A stretch of 64,000 nt of DNA, from assembly GCA_023666705.1 (NCBI GenBank), contig JAMPBO010000003.1, forward strand, positions 124,001-188,000. The letters run 5' to 3'. This DNA comes from Bacteroides sp. Lineage in GTDB: Bacteria; Bacillota; Clostridia; Lachnospirales; Lachnospiraceae. This document shows, in pieces, positions 1,744 through 10,753 of this stretch. Position numbers and translations under genes: made by a program. Below the pieces are notes generated by a model. That model was not told the DNA's origin and made no database searches. It was given only the letters and a program-made list of their open reading frames with translations. How positions within the stretch are numbered: position 1 is the stretch's first letter; every line of letters begins with the position of its first letter.

Positions 1744-3187
1744 TGCGGTTTGGCTGCTGTATTTGGTATTGGTTGTGTTTCAGGGATATTGTCTGCAATA
1801 CTTTCTTGGGAGTTTTTTGGAGCGAAGATGGAATGGCAGGTGGAGCAATCCTGCCCTGATTGTGCTTTATACGCTTGGAATTTATGGAATATCAGAGCTT
1901 GTATTTAACAATCAGAATGTGCCGGTAGACAGTGATGCAGTAAAGAAGCTGATATTGTCGCTTTGTCTTTTATCTGTGATTGCCGCATGCTTTTATCAGT
2001 CAGCCCGACCGATTACTATTTTTCTTGTAACTGCCTTTTTGGCAGTTGTGGAAATAAGCAGGTATTTTGCAGGAATATTGATGGATAAAGCGGCTGACGG
2101 AGTGACAAGTGTATGGAACCATTGTATTGATAAAGGGCTGCTCACATCGGACAGAGCCCTTCTGCTGACCATCAGCGGTGGGATGATGACGGTACAGTTT
2201 CTTCAATATTTTTTAATTGGGGGACTCCTGTTTGTGTCGCTCCGGAAAATTGTCCGTGATTTCAAGGAAAAGGATTATGCAATCAGCAGAATGGAACTTT
2301 TATTTTTGCTTACACCGACAGTGGTGGCACTGCTGACTTGCGTTTTGTTACGGACTATTATAATAACGGTGGAAAATCGTGTTCCGAAAATGCTGTATAA
2401 TAGCCATCCCATACTGGTTCTTGTTATTCCGTCCATTTTATTTTTGTCGCTGGCATCCATTTTGTGCAGTGTAAAACTGTTTCAAAATATGATTTACACA
2501 GGCAGGGCGAAAAGTGAGCGGGTGGTTCTACAAAATCAGGTAAGCAGTATGCAGGAGCATTTGGAAGAAATGGAACGTATCTACTCGGAGATACGTGGAA
2601 TGAAGCATGACATGAAAAATACGATTGCCATAATTGGACAGCTTTCCACAGAAGAAAACAGGGAGCTTAGGGAATATCTGGCGGATATGAACAACGCCTT
2701 TGAGCGTCTTAAGCTACGTTTTAAAACGGGAAATACGGTGGCAGATACATTGCTGAATATGAAATATCACGAGGCACTGCGGGAGCTTCCTGATTTGAAA
2801 ATGGAGATGGATATGTTGATGTTTCCGCAGGATTTGAAAATTCATGGCTATGACATCGGCATTATACTTGGAAATGCAATTGATAATGCAGTGGAGGCAT
2901 GCAGGAGACTGAAGGAGACGGACAAGGAAGTAGATACATTTATTCGGCTAATATCCATGCAAAAAGGGAAGTGTTTGGTGGTTAAAATAGAAAACAGCTT
3001 TGACGGTAAGCTGTTTAAAAAGAAACAGGCAGAATTTCCAATGACGGTTAAGACTGATAAAGAACATCATGGCATGGGGCTTAGAAACATAAAAAACACA
3101 GTTGAAAAATACCATGGAACAATTGATTATAAGGTGGAGAACAGGACATTTATTCTGTCTGTAATGATGAAAAATGAGAGAAACTAA
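1736..3187 (+). CDS. GHKL-domain sensor histidine kinase
   Basis: A membrane sensor kinase of about 483 residues. The N-terminal half has six or so hydrophobic segments (for example residues 2-25, 68-90, 190-215, 230-250); the C-terminal half has the phospho-acceptor His near residue 291 in MKHDMKN, an N-box GNAIDNAVEAC and a G-box HGMGLRNIKNTV. This is the AgrC-like HPK10 layout that pairs with LytTR regulators. GTG 1736 is preferred as start because GGAGGG lies seven bases before it; ATG 1721 is an alternative. It overlaps the regulator gene by eight bases, which suggests translational coupling. No prepeptide or processing protease gene of agr type is seen next to it. Confidence 0.9.
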   Translation: MYNAVWLLYLVLVVFQGYCLQYFLGSFLERRWNGRWSNPALIVLYTLGIYGISELVFNNQNVPVDSDAVKKLILSLCLLSVIAACFYQSARPITIFLVTAFLAVVEISRYFAGILMDKAADGVTSVWNHCIDKGLLTSDRALLLTISGGMMTVQFLQYFLIGGLLFVSLRKIVRDFKEKDYAISRMELLFLLTPTVVALLTCVLLRTIIITVENRVPKMLYNSHPILVLVIPSILFLSLASILCSVKLFQNMIYTGRAKSERVVLQNQVSSMQEHLEEMERIYSEIRGMKHDMKNTIAIIGQLSTEENRELREYLADMNNAFERLKLRFKTGNTVADTLLNMKYHEALRELPDLKMEMDMLMFPQDLKIHGYDIGIILGNAIDNAVEACRRLKETDKEVDTFIRLISMQKGKCLVVKIENSFDGKLFKKKQAEFPMTVKTDKEHHGMGLRNIKNTVEKYHGTIDYKVENRTFILSVMMKNERN

Positions 3188-3302
3188 GTATTCACATTAA
3201 AATTAAAATATAGTTTGTCAGTTCATTGGATGTAAGCAAATTCCAGTTTTATAGGAAACTGCTAAGTGATGGGCTGATGCTGAAAGGAAAGGAGCTATGA
3301 AC

Positions 3303-4136
3303 ATGAGTAGTGGAAACAGAATTGAAGCAGGGCAGTATATGGGTGAATCCTATCAGGAGCGTATCGGCAAAATAACGGACAAAACTGCGGCAAATGCGTT
3401 TAAAACAGCGTATGAGAACAAAATGGCAGGTAGCATGGATTATATTTCACAAATCAGTAAGCTGTTTAATACGGGAAAGGTGGGAGCCACAAATTTTGTG
3501 GATGCATTTCCGCAATATAATGTGACAACCCATGTGGGAAATGCCAATATTTCTTCGTCAAACTGGCAGCGAAACGATTTCCCGTTCTGGGAATATTTCC
3601 AGAAAAACACAAGTGCGGATGCCTTAAATGACTGGAAGCCCGCAGGGCAGAATCCGCCTCAGACAAGAAGCGATTTGCAGAGAAATTACAGCAGTGTTGG
3701 TTCGGGAAAGATTGCCATTTTGATTCCTGAGAGTCTACAGAAAAAAATGGATGCAGACCCTGCCTATGCCAGACAGATAATGGCAAAGGTCCAGGAGTGG
3801 AAGGAAGATTATGACCGCTGGGATAACACGACAGCGGCTGCCCTTGGAATGAATGTGGCGGAGCAGCAGGCGGCAAAAAGCTATGTGTTTGACTTGGATG
3901 AAAACGGGGATGTGAGAAATTGTACGGTTACAGCACCGGGAAGAATTACGGGACCTTCGAAGGAGGAAATGGAGCAATTACGGGCAGAGCAGGAAAGAAA
4001 AAGAAAACGCCGCGTGAAATACATAGAAATATTACAGGAAAATGCCGACAGAAGAAGAACACAGGAATTAGAGGATTTAAGGTTTTACCAAAGCCAGATG
4101 GCGGGAAATTATAGACAAAGGGCTGTCAGTTCATAA
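3303..4136 (+). CDS. Unknown protein, Lachnospiraceae-type, coiled charged C-terminus
   Basis: A 277-residue soluble protein without signal peptide or membrane segment. A conserved-looking central part (about 137-180) reads GKIAILIPESLQKKMD and then VQEWKEDYDRWDN, and the C-terminus (about 225-275) is a highly charged, probably coiled helix rich in Glu, Arg and Lys. The layout resembles proteins annotated as DUF6033 in this family of bacteria (recollection, not checked). AGGAG eight bases upstream supports ATG 3303 over ATG 3297. It follows the two-component genes on the same strand with a gap of about 115 bases, and a paralogue follows it, so both may be targets of that system (inference). 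Function unknown. Confidence 0.75.
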   Translation: MSSGNRIEAGQYMGESYQERIGKITDKTAANAFKTAYENKMAGSMDYISQISKLFNTGKVGATNFVDAFPQYNVTTHVGNANISSSNWQRNDFPFWEYFQKNTSADALNDWKPAGQNPPQTRSDLQRNYSSVGSGKIAILIPESLQKKMDADPAYARQIMAKVQEWKEDYDRWDNTTAAALGMNVAEQQAAKSYVFDLDENGDVRNCTVTAPGRITGPSKEEMEQLRAEQERKRKRRVKYIEILQENADRRRTQELEDLRFYQSQMAGNYRQRAVSS

Positions 4137-4144
4137 ATAATAGT

Positions 4145-4223
4145 AGGCGGTTGCGAAATGTCATATTATCGAAAAGTAGTTGTACAACGAACGTTTTCAA
4201 AAGACAGAGTTTCGCAATTGCCT
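4145..4223. repeat. Palindromic repeat element, copy 1
   Basis: Arms 4145-4158 and 4210-4223 pair over 14 bases with two G-T wobbles. The centre contains the palindrome GTTGTACAAC. The outer arms are almost the same as those of the element at 9721-9869, and the inside resembles 53440-53502, so this looks like a small dispersed palindromic (MITE- or REP-like) element between two genes. It has no reading frame and no T-tail of a normal terminator. Confidence 0.6.
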
Positions 4224-4254
4224 AAATAAATAATAGAAGTGGAAGGAAAAGATT

Positions 4255-4824
4255 ATGTCAATTATAGGAATTGGAAATAACTACAACGATATATATGGAA
4301 GCATTTATACATATAAGAAAAATGATGTAGGAACGGAGGCACAAGCAAGGGAAGCTGCGTCTTCGAGGACAAGTGGTGAGAAAAATATGGCAAAAAGTGA
4401 TGCATCAGATTATTATTCTTATATTGCAAAAAAATATGATTGTGTAAGAAACGGAAATGTTGTAATTTCAAGTGCATATTTAAAGGAATGTGCAAATAAC
4501 GCCGATAAGGCAAAGGAACTGGGAGAAAGTCTTGCTTTTTACAAGGAAAGTTGTAAAAGTGGGTATGAAAATGCGAAAGCTAATGCAAGAGGAATTGGTG
4601 CAAAGCTTACGAATTATTCGGAAAGCTGGAGTATTGACAACAAAGGAAACATAATTATGCAGGCTTCAGCAACAGTTGTGTCTGATACAAAGGGATGGCG
4701 GGAACTGAAAGAGGAGCAGGAGGAACGCTTAAAGAAGAAAAAGGAGCAGGAGGAGCAACTGGAAAAATTAAAAGAGAGAAGGGAAGACAAAAAGAGAGAG
4801 GACATTTATTATCAGGCGGATTAA
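4255..4824 (+). CDS. Unknown protein, paralogue of the preceding gene
   Basis: A 189-residue soluble protein. It shares its architecture with the protein just upstream: a Ser/Ala-rich N-terminus, a central helical part (about 75-115), a short strand region with IDNKGNIIMQASATV matching FDLDENGDVRNCTVTA of the neighbour, and a strongly charged helical tail (about 143-185, alternating Glu and Lys). GGAAGGAAAAG precedes the ATG. Its stop codon overlaps the stop of the convergent acyltransferase gene. Charged tail and pairing suggest an oligomerising or surface-associated protein, but no function can be assigned. Confidence 0.75.
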   Translation: MSIIGIGNNYNDIYGSIYTYKKNDVGTEAQAREAASSRTSGEKNMAKSDASDYYSYIAKKYDCVRNGNVVISSAYLKECANNADKAKELGESLAFYKESCKSGYENAKANARGIGAKLTNYSESWSIDNKGNIIMQASATVVSDTKGWRELKEEQEERLKKKKEQEEQLEKLKERREDKKREDIYYQAD

Positions 4825-5882
4825 AGTGCGTGGTTGTCCGTAGCCCTCTTTTTTGTGGAAACTAATTTTTGCAACAATGAAAATATTCCTCCAGTAACAA
4901 AGCAACAGAAAGTAATAAGCAGTATGAGCAGACCGAGCGTGATACAGGCATTTTGTTTTTTATCTGCTGAAAATGTAATGCTGTTCAGTTTCAGATAGTA
5001 AAAGCCTACACGCACCACATAAATATGAACGAGATAAATAAGCAGCGTGTGTCTGCCTATATACGAAAAAATACATTTTTTGTGGGTCATTAGGCACATG
5101 ATGGAAACCATCAGTATCGTTGCCAAAATATAAACGACAATCCGAAACATCAGTCCGAGTAGCTTGGCATTTGGGTATATACTTTCATAAGATGCATTGC
5201 CTGCCAATACCTGACGGTTCAAAATGTCTTTTGTGTACAGGTGCCATATGAGCAGAAATATGACTGCTACAAGCATGAGTGCACATGTTTTGTGGGAAAG
5301 AGAGGGCTGTTTTTCGTCCATGTTATTCTTCTTTGAAGCCACTAGATAGCCTGCAATGAAATAAGGAAAAAAATATACTGTTCGTCCTACGGCAAAGCTG
5401 TGCCCGATAGATTCGTCGAAGCCAATCAGCAGACTGAAGGCTATGGCAACGCAAAAATAGCGGGAGAGCTTTGCGTCCTTTCCCTGAAGAAATTTTGTCA
5501 AGATGTATGCGTACACCATAAATAACAAATACCAGCAACAGTATTTTGGAGATGCAAGCAGATTTAAAAGCTTGAAGTCAGGAACCGTACAATATTCAAA
5601 TATTGTAAACAATACCTGCATCATCAAATAGCAAAAAAACATTTTTATTATTTTTCTCTCAACAGGTGTGGTTGAAATCTGTGCAAAATATCCGTTAATA
5701 AAAATAAATAACGGCATGTGAAAGCTATAGATAAGAACCCATAGCTTAGGGAAAAGCTGAAAGTCGTTTATATAACATTCCAGCAGATGTCCCGAAACTA
5801 CGGCAAGTATTAAAAACCCTTTTAAATTGTCCCAATAATAAACTCTTTGTTTTGGCATAACAGATGTTGTCAATTTAGTCAT
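4821..5882 (-). CDS. Acyltransferase family 3 membrane protein
   Basis: A 353-residue protein with about ten hydrophobic segments. The N-terminus has the family signature YYWDNLKGFLILAVVSGHLL, with the conserved His of the first helix, and FHMPLFIFINGYF follows near residue 55. This is the pattern of acyltransferase 3 / fucose 4-O-acetylase-like enzymes that move acetyl groups across the membrane onto sugars of polysaccharide, peptidoglycan or glycolipid. The start at 5882 has only a weak AAGGG upstream; the Met at residue 9 is an alternative. No polysaccharide genes lie beside it, so the acceptor is unknown. It is transcribed against its neighbour 4255-4824 with overlapping stops. Confidence 0.85.
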   Translation of the reverse strand: MTKLTTSVMPKQRVYYWDNLKGFLILAVVSGHLLECYINDFQLFPKLWVLIYSFHMPLFIFINGYFAQISTTPVERKIIKMFFCYLMMQVLFTIFEYCTVPDFKLLNLLASPKYCCWYLLFMVYAYILTKFLQGKDAKLSRYFCVAIAFSLLIGFDESIGHSFAVGRTVYFFPYFIAGYLVASKKNNMDEKQPSLSHKTCALMLVAVIFLLIWHLYTKDILNRQVLAGNASYESIYPNAKLLGLMFRIVVYILATILMVSIMCLMTHKKCIFSYIGRHTLLIYLVHIYVVRVGFYYLKLNSITFSADKKQNACITLGLLILLITFCCFVTGGIFSLLQKLVSTKKRATDNHAL

Positions 5883-6013
5883 ATCAAATTACCCTTAAAT
5901 TTTCGTAAAAATCAAAAAAGTTTTTAATATTTTATCACATGTGATTTTGTTTATCCATACAAAAAGGAGATTTGCAATGTTACATATCAGAGTATAAAAG
6001 TACTTGTGTGTTG

Positions 6014-6022
6014 TGGTATAAT
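6014..6022 (+). promoter_or_regulatory. Extended -10 promoter element
   Basis: TGGTATAAT is an extended -10 box about 45 bases before the start of the small monooxygenase-like gene. No good -35 hexamer is seen, which is usual for extended -10 promoters. Confidence 0.5.
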
Positions 6023-6066
6023 ATATAAATATAAAGAATTAAGTAAAATATAGGGAGGGAAACAAA

Positions 6067-6399
6067 ATGGCTGTCACGGTAAATATTTATTATACAGGAA
6101 AAAATGGAAGTGCAAGAAGGTTTGCAGAGGAAATGGTATCGGCAGGAGTAGTCAGTAATATCCGTGCGGAAGCAGGAAATATACGGTATGAGTATTTTTT
6201 TCCGATGGAAGATAATGAAACAGTGCTTTTGATTGATAGTTGGGAAGACCAGCATTCTTTAGATGTACATCATGCTTCGCCTATGATGGAGCAAATTACA
6301 AGGCTTAGGGAAAAGTATGATTTACATATGAAGGTGGAACGGTATTTGTCTGATGCGGACGGAGCCACGGAGAATGACAAAGCATTTATAAGGGAATAA
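6067..6399 (+). CDS. ABM-domain protein, putative quinol monooxygenase
   Basis: A 110-residue protein matching the size and pattern of single-domain ABM (antibiotic biosynthesis monooxygenase / YgiN-like) proteins: an N-terminal strand, a helix with RRFAEEMV, the strand YEYFFPMEDNETVLLIDSW and a helix beginning SLDVHHASPMM, where the paired His residues are typical. Members dimerise as ferredoxin-like beta barrels and act on quinones or other aromatic substrates; the true substrate here is unknown. AGGGAGGG lies eight bases before the ATG. An SDR oxidoreductase follows 66 bases later on the same strand and may work with it. Confidence 0.8.
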   Translation: MAVTVNIYYTGKNGSARRFAEEMVSAGVVSNIRAEAGNIRYEYFFPMEDNETVLLIDSWEDQHSLDVHHASPMMEQITRLREKYDLHMKVERYLSDADGATENDKAFIRE

Positions 6400-6465
6400 A
6401 AAGATGATATAATATGCTTTACATATGCAGGAATAATAAAAATACGATTTTGGAGGAGCATGTAA

Positions 6466-7194
6466 ATGACAGATGTAAAAGGAAGATGGGCATTGGTCAC
6501 AGGTGCCAGCAGAGGAATTGGAAGGCTTGCGGCGAAATATTTGGCAAAGCAGGGCTGTAACATTATTGTTCACAGCTCAAGGCTTGAGCATTCAAGGGCA
6601 GTCAGTAAGGAGATACAAGCTTTGGGTGTATCTACATTTGAAGTGGCAGCAAATCTGTCGGATATGGGACAGGTAAAAAATATGCTTGAGCAGATTGATG
6701 CCATGAAAGCCCGTGTAGATATTGTATTAAACAATGCCGGCGTTCAGGTTGCATATAGGACAAGGTATTTTGAAACACCTGTATCAGATTATGAGGAAAG
6801 CTTTCTGATAAATACCATTGCTCCCATGATGATTTGTTATCATTTTCTTCCGAAAATGATTGAAAATGGATTTGGCAGGATTGTAAATACGACAAGCGGA
6901 ATCAGACTGGAGCCACAACAGGCAGGATATTCAGCCAGCAAGGCGGCACTTGACAAGGTAACTGTAGATTTAGGCTCTACGGTAGATGGAACGGACGTTA
7001 TGATAAATCTTACAGACCCTGGATGGTGTAGAACAGACCTTGGCGGAAATAATGCCCCAAATAGCCCTGAAAGTGCCCTGCCGGGTGTCGTTCTTGGCGT
7101 ATTCCTTGATGATAAGAAATCAGGAAGAATTATTTCGGCACAGGAATATGCAGGATTATCTTTAGATGAGGCTGTTGCATTGGCAGGAAAATAG
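6466..7194 (+). CDS. SDR-family NAD(P)-dependent oxidoreductase
   Basis: A 242-residue classical short-chain dehydrogenase/reductase. It shows the cofactor motif TGASRGIGR at residues 13-21, NNAGVQ at about 88, a catalytic Ser in TTSGIR and YSASKAALDKV with the catalytic Tyr and Lys near 154-158. GGAGG sits before the ATG. The C-terminal region DPGWCRTDLGGNNAPNSPE is typical of carbonyl or ketone reductases that are NADPH-dependent. It probably shares a transcript with the ABM-domain gene upstream, and a strong terminator lies about 115 bases downstream. Substrate not identifiable. Confidence 0.9.
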   Translation: MTDVKGRWALVTGASRGIGRLAAKYLAKQGCNIIVHSSRLEHSRAVSKEIQALGVSTFEVAANLSDMGQVKNMLEQIDAMKARVDIVLNNAGVQVAYRTRYFETPVSDYEESFLINTIAPMMICYHFLPKMIENGFGRIVNTTSGIRLEPQQAGYSASKAALDKVTVDLGSTVDGTDVMINLTDPGWCRTDLGGNNAPNSPESALPGVVLGVFLDDKKSGRIISAQEYAGLSLDEAVALAGK

Positions 7195-7308
7195 AGAATG
7201 ATGCGGTATTTGAAATCTAATTAATGCATAAGAAAAATTTATGTTATCTAAGCCAATTCTTTAAGCTGTAAAAATAAAAAGATATAGTCTAGATAATTTA
7301 AAATGAAA

Positions 7309-7350
7309 AGCAAGACCGTCACAGAAGGCTTACCCCGTGACGGTCTTGCT
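7309..7350. terminator. Strong bidirectional terminator
   Basis: A 14-base perfect stem (7309-7322 with 7337-7350) with a 14-base loop, with A-rich sequence on the left and TTTATT on the right. It sits between two convergent genes (SDR on plus, sigma-like factor on minus) and can serve both. Confidence 0.85.
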
Positions 7351-7427
7351 TTATTCCCATCTGCACATCCTAGTATCAGAACTAAAGCACAGAAAACGAT
7401 TCTTTTTGTGGAAAAGCTGTTCACACA

Positions 7428-7850
7428 TTATCCGTTGTCTGCGTTACATAAAATATCCTTCAGTCTTTTCAAAATCCTTTTGTGTCTGTAATGCAGGGTT
7501 GATAAGGGAACATCATCTTCTTTGGATATGGTACGCAGGGATGTTCCATAAAAATACAGGCGGTATATCAGTGCATAGTCGTCTGCTGAAAGCTGCTCTA
7601 ATGCATGGTGAAGGTTGCTTATTTCCATATTTTTGATGACCTGCTCGTCCACGGGCGGACTTGCCTCGTCTAAAAAAATGTCACTTCCGTTTGTCTCCTC
7701 CGTATCAAGTGCATTGTAATAAAAAACTTTATTGTGTATATCACCTTCTGCAAAATATCGTTCCTTCCGTTGTCCCTGCCAGTATGCCTTGTAGACTGTC
7801 TCACTGACTGCAATGGGAAGATTGTCAATCCATATAAAAAAATCACTCAT
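7428..7850 (-). CDS. Sigma-70-like region 4 protein
   Basis: A 140-residue protein with a clear C-terminal helix-turn-helix of sigma region 4: LEQLSADDYALIYRLYFYG, then SLRTISKEDDVPLSTLHYRHKRILKRL (about 85-133). The N-terminal part has little resemblance to a full sigma region 2, so it is a small sigma-like or RNA-polymerase-binding regulator. Such genes are common in integrative and conjugative elements and in secondary-function modules of Clostridia. AGGAGG precedes the ATG. It is transcribed away from the module at 8175-10753 and may control it, which is inference from position only. Confidence 0.75.
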   Translation of the reverse strand: MSDFFIWIDNLPIAVSETVYKAYWQGQRKERYFAEGDIHNKVFYYNALDTEETNGSDIFLDEASPPVDEQVIKNMEISNLHHALEQLSADDYALIYRLYFYGTSLRTISKEDDVPLSTLHYRHKRILKRLKDILCNADNG

Positions 7851-8174
7851 CGGTTATAATTCCTCCTATTTCTTGTATGCCGTATCGCATAAGTATTCGG
7901 CAGCCGGATATGGGATAGCAGTGTATCTTCGCACATACCCATACTTCAATAGGGAAATCAGGCATGTTTTTCATTACCATAAAATGCGGGTGGTAAATAA
8001 AAAACATTTTTTACTTTACAAAAACAAACATATGTTCTATTATGAGTTTATCAGAAACAATAAACACTGTCAATAAAAAATATTGAGAACTGAATCAACC
8101 TACAGTATGGCATATCGTCTTTGGAGAGGGACTATAAAAACTACTACTTTATAATATGAGGGAGGAACAGCAAT
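7851..8174. other. Divergent intergenic region
   Basis: About 320 bases, AT-rich, between the start of the sigma-like gene (minus) and the first unknown gene of the module (plus). It contains an SOS-like near-palindrome at 8026-8037 and a TATAAT at 8150-8155, nineteen bases before the ribosome binding site of 8175; no matching -35 is seen. No credible gene lies in it. Confidence 0.5.
8026..8037. promoter_or_regulatory. Possible LexA-type site, one mismatch
   Basis: AAACATATGTTC differs at one position from the Gram-positive SOS consensus GAAC-RNRY-GTTC. It lies in the divergent region between the sigma-like gene and the first paralogue. It is supported mainly by the perfect copy at 8805-8816. 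Confidence 0.35.
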
Positions 8175-8795
8175 ATGAAGGAGCTTAAGATACAGGTGAT
8201 GGAGGACGATTTAAAAATTTTGAAGGATAATCACTATGCCTTGTGCATTGCAAAGAGCGTGGAGGATTGTGATTTCAATGTGATATGGCAGGCAGAGCAA
8301 AATTTTACACAGCAAAATTCAATCACATGGGAAGAAAAATACAGCATATTTGCCAGCAGGCAAATGAAAAAGCAAACTGTAGTGCAGATGAATGTCTCAC
8401 CAAAGGAAATTGCTACAGGGCAGCAGATTACATTGCTTGCGGAGGGTTGCTTTGGAGATGTGGAGTCGTCTAAGGAACAAGATGAAATTATAATGACAAA
8501 TCAGTGGACGCCGATTTATCCGGGACTTTGTCAGCAATGTACAGGCTTTGCAGGAGATACCGCATATGCTCCGTTTTATGTAAGTCCCGATATGTGTATA
8601 CCTGGCACATTTACTACAAAGCCAACAGAACAAATTATGGTATGGTTTGCACAGAATGCACAAAGCGGATTGATAATTTCCGAAAAGAAATATGAAGAAA
8701 CGGAAAAAGCACTCAGCAACTTTATTACCATAGATATGAGCGGAAAAAATGAAATGTCAATAGCATTTGATAAGTTCTCATGGAAAAAAATATAA
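8175..8795 (+). CDS. Unknown leaderless protein, paralogue A
   Basis: A 206-residue protein without signal peptide or membrane segment. It is clearly related to the next gene: both have ALCIAKSV..FNVIWQA / MCFAKKV..YNVIWQS, an ITW/FSW followed by a strand, a VSPKEIATGQ / SNPKTIGLGE motif, YVSPDMC / YVSENEC and IMVWFAQNA / VMIWFEYNA near residues 155-165. The alternating hydrophobic pattern suggests a beta-rich fold. Strong GGAGG ribosome binding site. I do not recognise the family. It precedes a paralogue and a protease, and could be a substrate or effector in that set. Confidence 0.75.
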   Translation: MKELKIQVMEDDLKILKDNHYALCIAKSVEDCDFNVIWQAEQNFTQQNSITWEEKYSIFASRQMKKQTVVQMNVSPKEIATGQQITLLAEGCFGDVESSKEQDEIIMTNQWTPIYPGLCQQCTGFAGDTAYAPFYVSPDMCIPGTFTTKPTEQIMVWFAQNAQSGLIISEKKYEETEKALSNFITIDMSGKNEMSIAFDKFSWKKI

Positions 8796-8804
8796 AAAAT
8801 AATG

Positions 8805-8816
8805 GAACATATGTTC
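8805..8816. promoter_or_regulatory. Perfect SOS/LexA-type palindrome
   Basis: GAACATATGTTC fits the Gram-positive LexA consensus GAAC-RNRY-GTTC exactly. It lies nine bases after the stop of paralogue A and 87 bases before the start of paralogue B, a reasonable operator position for a separate promoter of paralogue B. Chance occurrence cannot be excluded for a 12-base palindrome. Confidence 0.5.
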
Positions 8817-8903
8817 TTTCTGTCGGATGAATAGTGTAGATGATGACGTCGCATCGAAAGACAAGAAGAACAATATATGTAATTTATGAAGGAGGATTTT
8901 CAC

Positions 8904-9602
8904 ATGAGTAATTTATTAAATGAAAAAAAGGCAACTGCAAGGGAAGAAGAGCTTAAAGCTTATTTTGTAACGGCGGCAGCGTTAAATTTAGCAGTTGGGA
9001 ATGCAACGAAAGAGGTAAACATACAGATTGCCGTAGACGATATCAGAAAGCTGATGAACAGTAATTACAGAATGTGCTTTGCAAAGAAGGTAGGAAATGA
9101 TAATTACAATGTTATATGGCAGTCCTATAAGGATTTTTCAGAAAATAACACATTTTCATGGACACCGCAATATCAGGTATTCCGTACAGATACCTTCCAG
9201 TCAGGCGTAACGGTTAAGACTGCATCTAACCCAAAGACAATCGGCTTGGGAGAGAAGACGACCATAGATTCTTATGGTATTCTCTCAGACCCTGTAACGG
9301 GTGGAGACACCACAGCCATTAATGTCGACAATGAGTATAAGGCAACACATATCGGTGTTTCCCAGCTTTCTACAGGTATTGACGGCAAGGTTGTGTCAAC
9401 ACCGATTTATGTATCTGAAAATGAATGTATGTTGGGTGATGCAGTGCTGAAGCCGGTTGAGAAGGTTATGATTTGGTTTGAGTATAATGCAGAGACCAGC
9501 ACCATGTTTACTGACATGAAGACACGTGGTGTTGAGGTGGATCTGACACAGAAAAACAGCGTCAACCTGAAATATGAGAACGAAAAATGGTCAACGATTT
9601 AA
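8904..9602 (+). CDS. Unknown leaderless protein, paralogue B
   Basis: A 232-residue homologue of the preceding protein with an extra N-terminal helical stretch of about 35 residues beginning MSNLLNEKKATAREEELKAY. AAGGAGG eight bases upstream fixes the start at ATG 8904. Shared motifs are listed under paralogue A; here they read MCFAKKVGNDNYNVIWQS (about 52-70), SNPKTIGLGEKTT, VSENECMLGD and KVMIWFEYNAETS. No Cys pairs, signal peptide or membrane segment. A terminator follows, then the protease gene. The first four residues MSNL recur in the protease, perhaps reflecting shared origin of the leader. Function unknown. Confidence 0.8.
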   Translation: MSNLLNEKKATAREEELKAYFVTAAALNLAVGNATKEVNIQIAVDDIRKLMNSNYRMCFAKKVGNDNYNVIWQSYKDFSENNTFSWTPQYQVFRTDTFQSGVTVKTASNPKTIGLGEKTTIDSYGILSDPVTGGDTTAINVDNEYKATHIGVSQLSTGIDGKVVSTPIYVSENECMLGDAVLKPVEKVMIWFEYNAETSTMFTDMKTRGVEVDLTQKNSVNLKYENEKWSTI

Positions 9603-9654
9603 GTGTTTTCGGCTGATGCTGCAATAGGGATTCAGGTAAAGCAATATGGGTAAG

Positions 9655-9709
9655 CTGCCGGAGTGGGCTGTATGGCGGGTAATGCAGTCCGTTTCCGGCA
9701 GTCTTGTTT
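9655..9709 (+). terminator. Terminator-like hairpin after paralogue B
   Basis: Stem 9655-9662 pairs perfectly with 9694-9701, an inner GGGCTG/CAGTCC adds pairing, and TCTTGTTT follows. It ends the paralogue transcript before the repeat and the protease gene. Confidence 0.6.
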
Positions 9710-9720
9710 AAACGATTGAC

Positions 9721-9869
9721 AGGTAATTGCGAAACTATGTGTTTTATATGATACGTTGTAGAAAATATACAAATTCAACTCAGGTCACGCTTACGCTTAA
9801 CGCCCTGCTTATGAACTTGTATATTTTCTCCAACTTACGTTATTATAAAGCAGAGTTTCGCAATTGCCT
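9721..9869. repeat. Palindromic repeat element, copy 2, long form
   Basis: Outer arms 9721-9736 and 9854-9869 match at 15 of 16 positions. A second inner inverted repeat of about 22 bases (GTAGAAAATATACAA and its mate near 9814-9833) gives a hairpin covering nearly the whole 149 bases, with a loop containing CACGCTTACGCTTAACGCCC. The outer arms are almost identical to those of the element at 4145-4223. It lies directly upstream of the protease gene. Confidence 0.65.
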
Positions 9870-9901
9870 ATAAATAGGTTATGGGAAAAGAGGAGAGATT
9901 T

Positions 9902-10753
9902 ATGAGTAATTTAGTATTTGAAAAGATGGTAAATGGAATAAATAACACAGAGGAAGGAATTATAAACAAGCTACGCTCCGACAGACTTGTGGACAGGCAT
10001 GGAAATCTGAAGCTTGACGTAATAGAGAGTATAAAGGCAATTGGTGAAATAGACGCCGATGAGCTTCGGACGGTCAGGGCAGATAGCGTGGAACAGGTAA
10101 TCGGTACAGATACAAGGACGGAGGTTGCCGATAAGAGCGTGGCACCATATAAATCCATTGTGCTTTTAATTATGAAGTATGGGAACGATCTTTATCGAGG
10201 TACGGGATTTTTGATTAAAGATAATATGGTACTTACAGCTGCACACAATTTATATAGCTTAGATTTGGAAAAACCGGCAGATGAGGTATATATTATTGGA
10301 GCACCAAGAGATACGGCACATATAAAAACCTATACTGGTTTAAAGGTATCGGTTGACTATGTTTCAGGCGGCTCACAGGGTGGACAGCATGATTGGGGAC
10401 TGATTAAGATGAATGATGCAATGACAGATTTGGGGACTATCAATGTAAGCAGGGCGGCAGATGTTCCGGCTTCTGTTTTAGATGATGTTTTGATAGCGGG
10501 ATATCCGGGTATGGCACAGGGTAAGTCAACTACAGATATGTGGGAAGCTGACGGCTCTGCACAATATTATCATGCAAGTGAGGTAATGGAATATATCATC
10601 AGCACTTCAGGCGGCAACAGCGGTTCTCCTGTTATGGTATATTATGGAGCGTGCAGAGTTGCAATTGGTATTCATGTGTTAGGAAGTGTTAATGCCAATT
10701 ACGCAAAGGCAATAGACGATGAGGTTATAACGGCGATTAATGAATTTCGTTAA
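9902..10753 (+). CDS. V8/glutamyl-endopeptidase-like serine protease without signal peptide
   Basis: A 283-residue trypsin-fold protease of the V8/GluSE (S1B) kind. After a possible propeptide (1-65) comes VIGTDTRTEV..PYKSIV, which matches the mature N-terminus of Bacillus glutamyl endopeptidases. The catalytic triad is H115 in LTAAHNLY, D164 in HDWGLIKM and S240 in SGGNSGSPV. AGGAG six bases upstream supports ATG 9902. Family members are normally secreted, but the N-terminus here (MSNLVFEKMVNG) is not a signal peptide, so it either acts inside the cell or leaves by another route. It follows the two leaderless paralogues, which are possible substrates (inference). A terminator follows. Confidence 0.85.
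   Translation: MSNLVFEKMVNGINNTEEGIINKLRSDRLVDRHGNLKLDVIESIKAIGEIDADELRTVRADSVEQVIGTDTRTEVADKSVAPYKSIVLLIMKYGNDLYRGTGFLIKDNMVLTAAHNLYSLDLEKPADEVYIIGAPRDTAHIKTYTGLKVSVDYVSGGSQGGQHDWGLIKMNDAMTDLGTINVSRAADVPASVLDDVLIAGYPGMAQGKSTTDMWEADGSAQYYHASEVMEYIISTSGGNSGSPVMVYYGACRVAIGIHVLGSVNANYAKAIDDEVITAINEFR

Follow-up and report, generated by a model that had tools for sequence, protein, structure and literature searches.

Two paralogous genes, here termed A and B, precede a gene for a V8-like serine protease in a 64,000-nucleotide stretch of a Lachnospiraceae genome (contig JAMPBO010000003.1, positions 124,001 to 188,000; hereafter the window). When would a cell make three such leaderless products, and what would the protease do to its neighbors? 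A preliminary description had proposed a linked effector-protease system. We found LexA-box-like palindromes at conserved positions upstream of both A and B, a regulatory clue that goes beyond the preliminary description and is new here. The cassette is probably a stress-triggered module and not an ordinary secreted enzyme.

LexA boxes upstream of A and B

The comparison of the cassette covered 11 distinct Lachnospiraceae loci, one of them the window, with the duplicates L012/L030, L013/L032, and L014/L086 counted once. LexA boxes were identified by the pattern RAAC-N4-GTTY in the region between A and the adjoining sigma-like regulator gene (sigma-A region) and in the A-B region; the regions extended 160 and 60 bases into annotated open reading frames (ORFs), allowing for wrong starts. 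The sigma-A region was boxed in all ten loci keeping both paralogue genes and the A-B region in nine of them, L086 being the exception. None of the 61 control gaps from the same loci (10,657 bases) contained a box, and Markov shuffles of each region did so in 0.5-4% of cases. The loose pattern was found 28 times over the 209,699 bases of these loci, about nine of them outside the two regions. The loci are related, and the box counts are therefore not independent trials. When the sigma-A gaps were aligned, a recurrent arrangement CTTTACA-n6-GAACATATGTTC-TATAAT was observed. Palindromes of 12 bases with at most two mismatches are not uncommon in the window (2 observed vs 3.8 expected), and the weight rests on the position and conservation of the boxes, not on the palindrome as such.

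In the same genome lexA is preceded by GAACATTCGTTT and recA by AAACGTATGTTT, boxes of the kind found in the cassette. Six other sites fit the strict pattern, three of which precede genes for a LysM protein, an alkyltransferase-like protein, and a radical-SAM protein with helix-hairpin-helix motifs, while no gene relatable to repair was found at the remaining three. The LexA operator of Bacillus and Clostridium is given as GAAC-N4-GTTC or GTTT, and Clostridium difficile lexA and recA as carrying GAAC-N4-GTTT, in PMC4234289. Boxes are thus present in 10/10 and 9/10 loci compared to 0/61 control gaps, and lexA and recA have boxes of a similar kind, which makes induction of the cassette by DNA damage very probable. 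Judged from these promoter sequences, we rate SOS control as very likely.

Table 1. Features of the cassette in the window.
Feature	Position	Strand	Remarks
Small sigma-70 region-4-like regulator gene, 140 residues, divergent from A	7428..7850	-	Sigma70_r4 4.6e-4, below cut-off
Promoter of sigma-A type, TTTACA-17-TATTAT, directed towards A	8015..8043	+	10/12 matches to consensus; promoter scan in total 15 vs 12.3 in shuffles, i.e., not above shuffles
LexA-box-like palindrome AAACATATGTTC within promoter spacer	8026..8037	+	
Paralogue A, 206 residues, beta-domain only, fast evolving	8175..8795	+	
LexA box GAACATATGTTC, A-B gap	8805..8816	+	
Paralogue B, 238 residues (probable start 8904, giving 232 residues)	8886..9602	+	N-terminal helix and beta-sandwich
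RNA hairpin, B-protease gap, possible attenuator	9647..9710	+	-34.1 kcal/mol, RNA folding, without shuffle control
V8/glutamyl-endopeptidase-type serine protease with retained propeptide, 290 residues (probable start 9902, giving 283 residues)	9881..10753	+	

The cassette in Lachnospiraceae

Among the 397 genomes of the family sample, source genome included, A/B relatives were found in four, with a protease relative directly adjoining in three of these. Protease matches (E 1e-3) occurred in ten genomes; the closest relatives (43-45% identity) adjoin A/B, while those away from A/B were 25-32% identical. However, identity alone does not separate the proteases beside A/B, since those of L049 and L080 are just 29-31% identical to the window protease.

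The sigma-like gene adjoins an A/B gene in all 11 distinct loci, and A is followed directly by B in all ten that keep both. The protease lies downstream of B in nine loci, which contain all four genes together. L093 has a B remnant only. Flanking genes vary between loci, near-identical relatives excepted, and the sample contained one further genome of this genus, which had no match for A/B, the protease, or the sigma-like gene. The cassette is therefore accessory.

Paralogues A and B

A and B were described earlier as paralogous and leaderless, and this agrees with our analysis: they share 28% identity (E 3e-40), and no export signal was found on either of them or on the protease. B has an N-terminus longer by about 40 residues, whereas A starts at the common domain. 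No convincing match for the family was obtained from Pfam, NCBIfam, PHROGs, or PADLOC, and neither paralogue nor the protease matched a bacteriocin family in the libraries scanned. The fold, previously given as unknown, was checked for B. The confident predicted model (predicted local distance difference test, pLDDT, 94) consists of a long helix and a beta-sandwich, and no clear fold relative was seen among the matches listed; none of the 50 matches listed was a gasdermin. No metallo-beta-lactamase (MBL) nuclease match was obtained for A or B.

Members of the A/B family occur in at least four phyla of the tree and, in addition, in the actinomycete Lentzea. Alignment A3 comprised 36 of 41 non-redundant A/B sequences; L071, L080, L087, L089, and L092 were omitted because they had ambiguous letters, uncertain starts, or an unsuitable length. 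Within the family, the helix-plus-sandwich architecture of B is the canonical one. N-termini that clearly resemble signal peptides are found in Paraprochloron relatives (L033, 3673-4455; L071, 7120-8696, two tandem genes), and the A/B domain is therefore probably able to work outside the cytoplasm.

In L072, a CdiA-CT RNase A-type gene and, following it, a series of related short genes (2990-6170) lie upstream of the Photorhabdus A/B relative; the one short gene that was scanned matches CdiI_2 immunity proteins. Downstream of the A/B relative there is a TTc/RHS-repeat gene. In 30 of 36 Pseudomonas loci a single A/B gene is convergent with a gene of an uncharacterized family without Pfam match (cluster c1, e.g., L050 8656-9552), which is also seen near the A/B gene in L072 (Photorhabdus) and L035 (a Methylococcales genome) and is perhaps a regulator of its own. 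A papain-family gene lies directly 3' of the Nostoc linckia relative (L068, 9100-10185); inspection by eye of four further loci from the same bacterial family did not reveal one. Short ORFs beside Nostoc-family relatives (L126, 3276-3524; L128, 5322-5615) carry a motif resembling that of lasso leaders, YxxPxLxxxGxxxxxT, and L128 also has a PqqD-like ORF (by eye). These neighborhoods are possibly peptide-product clusters.

The protease

The description of a leaderless V8-like protease with intact triad and propeptide held up on alignment. The enzyme has a chymotrypsin-like fold with an H-D-S triad that is retained in all eight aligned sequences (alignment A4, eight of nine distinct proteases; L080 was incomplete and omitted), and it has neither a signal peptide nor a hydrophobic stretch. 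The propeptide of about 72 residues gave no confident model; since it is present, the protease probably needs a second step for activity. The previously reported lengths and triad numbers (H115, D164, S240) match the second-ATG starts of B and the protease, which are favored by Shine-Dalgarno spacing (read by eye). H265 is invariant in the eight sequences and aligns with the histidine of 1p3c. A histidine at this position of the S1 site confers Glu specificity in the V8 family, and by analogy a Glu-X preference of the window protease is likely. Only Trypsin domains were found in the protein, without fusion to a defense enzyme, and its PADLOC matches fall in residues 68-276, i.e., the protease part.

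The sigma-like gene and the gaps of the cassette

UviA/TcdR-type (group 5) sigma factors have sigma regions 2 and 4. The sigma-like gene of the window had a weak region-4 match alone in the library scan. It has matches in 80 of the 397 genomes, the four best being the four A/B genomes. Six of the next eight relatives were fetched (G342 and G361 were left out). In three of these (L104, L106, and L107) the relative adjoins a signal-peptidase-like and a camelysin/TasA-like gene, as judged from weak Pfam matches below cut-offs (L104, L107) or by eye (L106). A LexA-type palindrome lies upstream in these three and in L108; the L105 locus is itself degraded, and L109 has no box. A Com-like zinc-ribbon ORF was seen in L106, with similar ORFs in L107 and L108 (by eye). 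Given the palindromes upstream of four relatives, the regulator family seems to be tied to SOS-type promoters and varied target operons. In L014, the only Lachnospiraceae locus where A and B lie without the protease, a DUF6765 gene with weak likeness to Zn-dependent phospholipase C (6274-7359) overlaps the sigma-like gene.

The hairpin in the B-protease gap is also present in L027 and L028 and was not among the terminators listed by a terminator scan. The same gap holds an element resembling a miniature inverted-repeat transposable element (window 9709-9881; arms 9709-9746 and 9844-9881). Five other contigs carry partial copies of this element, and a single arm lies 5.5 kb upstream (window 4203-4223). 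Two adjacent DUF6033-like genes lie at window 3297-4136 (3.6e-6) and 4255-4824 (0.033, below cut-off).

Discussion

Gene order, protease fold, and box conservation are established, and from these we infer the remaining mechanism. As the first-ranked but tentative explanation of the sequence data, we suggest an SOS-induced effector pair that is processed by its zymogen protease. LexA would keep the A and B promoters closed, as the boxes suggest. Upon DNA damage or phage attack RecA would become active, LexA would be released, and A and B would become abundant, while the hairpin would keep the protease at a lower level. Once its propeptide was removed, the protease would cleave A and/or B. Cleavage might remove the fast-evolving A or trim B and so activate the helix-plus-sandwich protein, and the active product might act on the phage or on the envelope of the producing cell. 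Transcriptional control would stand in for the sensor domain of other protease-effector systems. In its fullest form the proposal is a sensorless SOS-triggered proteolytic effector system. LexA derepression would take the role that an NLR, CARD, or helicase sensor has in known protease-effector defenses, and under DNA damage or phage attack the zymogen V8-type protease would process both the helix-plus-sandwich effector and its fast-evolving paralogue. This fullest form is more doubtful.

A number of observations weigh against this explanation. No activator of the protease is known, and it lacks a sensor domain. Seven Glu columns are kept in Lachnospiraceae B, six of which are also Glu in 6-20 of 22 relatives without the protease, and no Glu-X site that is both conserved and placed in an exposed linker could be demonstrated. 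The A gene of L030 (about 7661-8365) is disrupted, with the frame lost and the middle part gone, whereas the frames of B, the protease, and the sigma-like gene are open. L086 has A, B, and the regulator without a neighboring protease, and its genome contains just a 25% relative on another contig. No protease relative was found in the fetched flanks (up to 8 kb, less at contig ends; ORFs of at least 80 residues) of the 57 A/B loci outside Lachnospiraceae, nor genome-wide in ten such genomes tested by a search without positive control. The strict LexA pattern is not enriched genome-wide (10 matches vs 14 for the reversed control). In favor of the explanation, the four cassette genes diverge in a correlated manner (r 0.85-0.96 over 6 loci), but plain vertical descent would also produce this.

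The trio link proposed in the preliminary description is thus genuine, although it has so far been seen only in Lachnospiraceae. Since all 57 outside loci lack the protease in their flanks, the A/B family does not depend on it, which weighs against A and B being mere substrates. The effector-protease interpretation is partly supported and stands as a proposal.

Three other explanations have to be considered. Colicins and the UviA-controlled clostridial bacteriocin are leaderless products freed by lysis, and the cassette could similarly be an SOS-made set without export signals since damaged cells lyse; A and B would act outside, and the zymogen would be matured there by another, perhaps gut, protease. 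This is consistent with the SOS boxes, with V8-type proteases usually acting outside, with the signal-peptide-like N-termini of the cyanobacterial relatives, with the boxed signal-peptidase-like and camelysin/TasA-like neighbors of some sigma-gene relatives, and with the resemblance of the sigma-like gene to UviA-bacteriocin loci (PMC4885068). However, no lysis gene was recognized by eye among the window neighbors, where no dedicated search was made, and the bacteriocin family matches are missing. We regard release by lysis as unlikely, if less so than the explanations that follow.

B may instead be one of a widespread family of beta-sandwich proteins with structural or binding roles, the protease merely having been recruited to an SOS-controlled locus in one bacterial family. 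The concentration of the closest protease relatives beside A/B speaks against such a bystander role, yet the divergent proteases of L049 and L080 soften the argument, and we consider it rather improbable. Staphostatin restrains staphopain inside the cell that makes it, and A and/or B could likewise be cytosolic inhibitors or chaperones that shield the cell from the protease. Beta-rich partners encoded beside a leaderless protease would suit this role, and the hairpin would yield an excess of inhibitor. A family that occurs mostly without this protease, and a locus such as L086 in which A and B have no adjoining protease, are difficult to reconcile with it, and we find inhibition the least probable of all.

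The SOS-induced effector pair would, if the protease does cut A or B, represent a bacterial protease-effector module triggered by a transcriptional repressor and not by a sensor domain. Even if there is no cutting, SOS is the first regulatory context for the A/B family. In either case a protein family without a name in the libraries searched is linked to a precise condition, DNA damage in Lachnospiraceae, a family that mostly dwells in the gut.

Comparison with known systems

The window protease shares its fold, triad, and mature N-terminus VIGxDxRTxV with the V8/glutamyl endopeptidases (1p3c, 1wcz, Esp; MEROPS family S1B), and its histidine is aligned with that of 1p3c. It differs from them in lacking a signal peptide, in lying in a LexA-boxed cassette, and in its propeptide without confident model. 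Bacterial gasdermins are protease-activated and resemble the cassette in the concept of pairing a protease with an effector that lacks a leader, but no sequence likeness was found, and the cassette has a paralogue pair.

UviA is under DNA-damage control. In UviA-type bacteriocin/toxin loci, as described in PMC4885068, a small sigma-like gene adjoins a set of leaderless products, as in the cassette. The cassette differs in that its sigma-like gene matches region 4 alone and that no lysis gene was recognized by eye.

The intracellular combination of a trypsin-like protease with a pro-effector is a design already established in bacteria (PMC12799240). The pairs of trypsin-like protease and MBL nuclease in Hachiman, AVAST, Lamassu, and DRT likewise have a leaderless protease encoded beside a candidate substrate. 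Compared to the Hachiman- and AVAST-type pairs, the protease of the cassette is unfused, its partners are beta-sandwich paralogues and not MBL nucleases, and probable LexA control takes the place of a sensor. The protease-activated nuclease of Hachiman and AVAST is the closest established precedent for such a design (PMC12799240).
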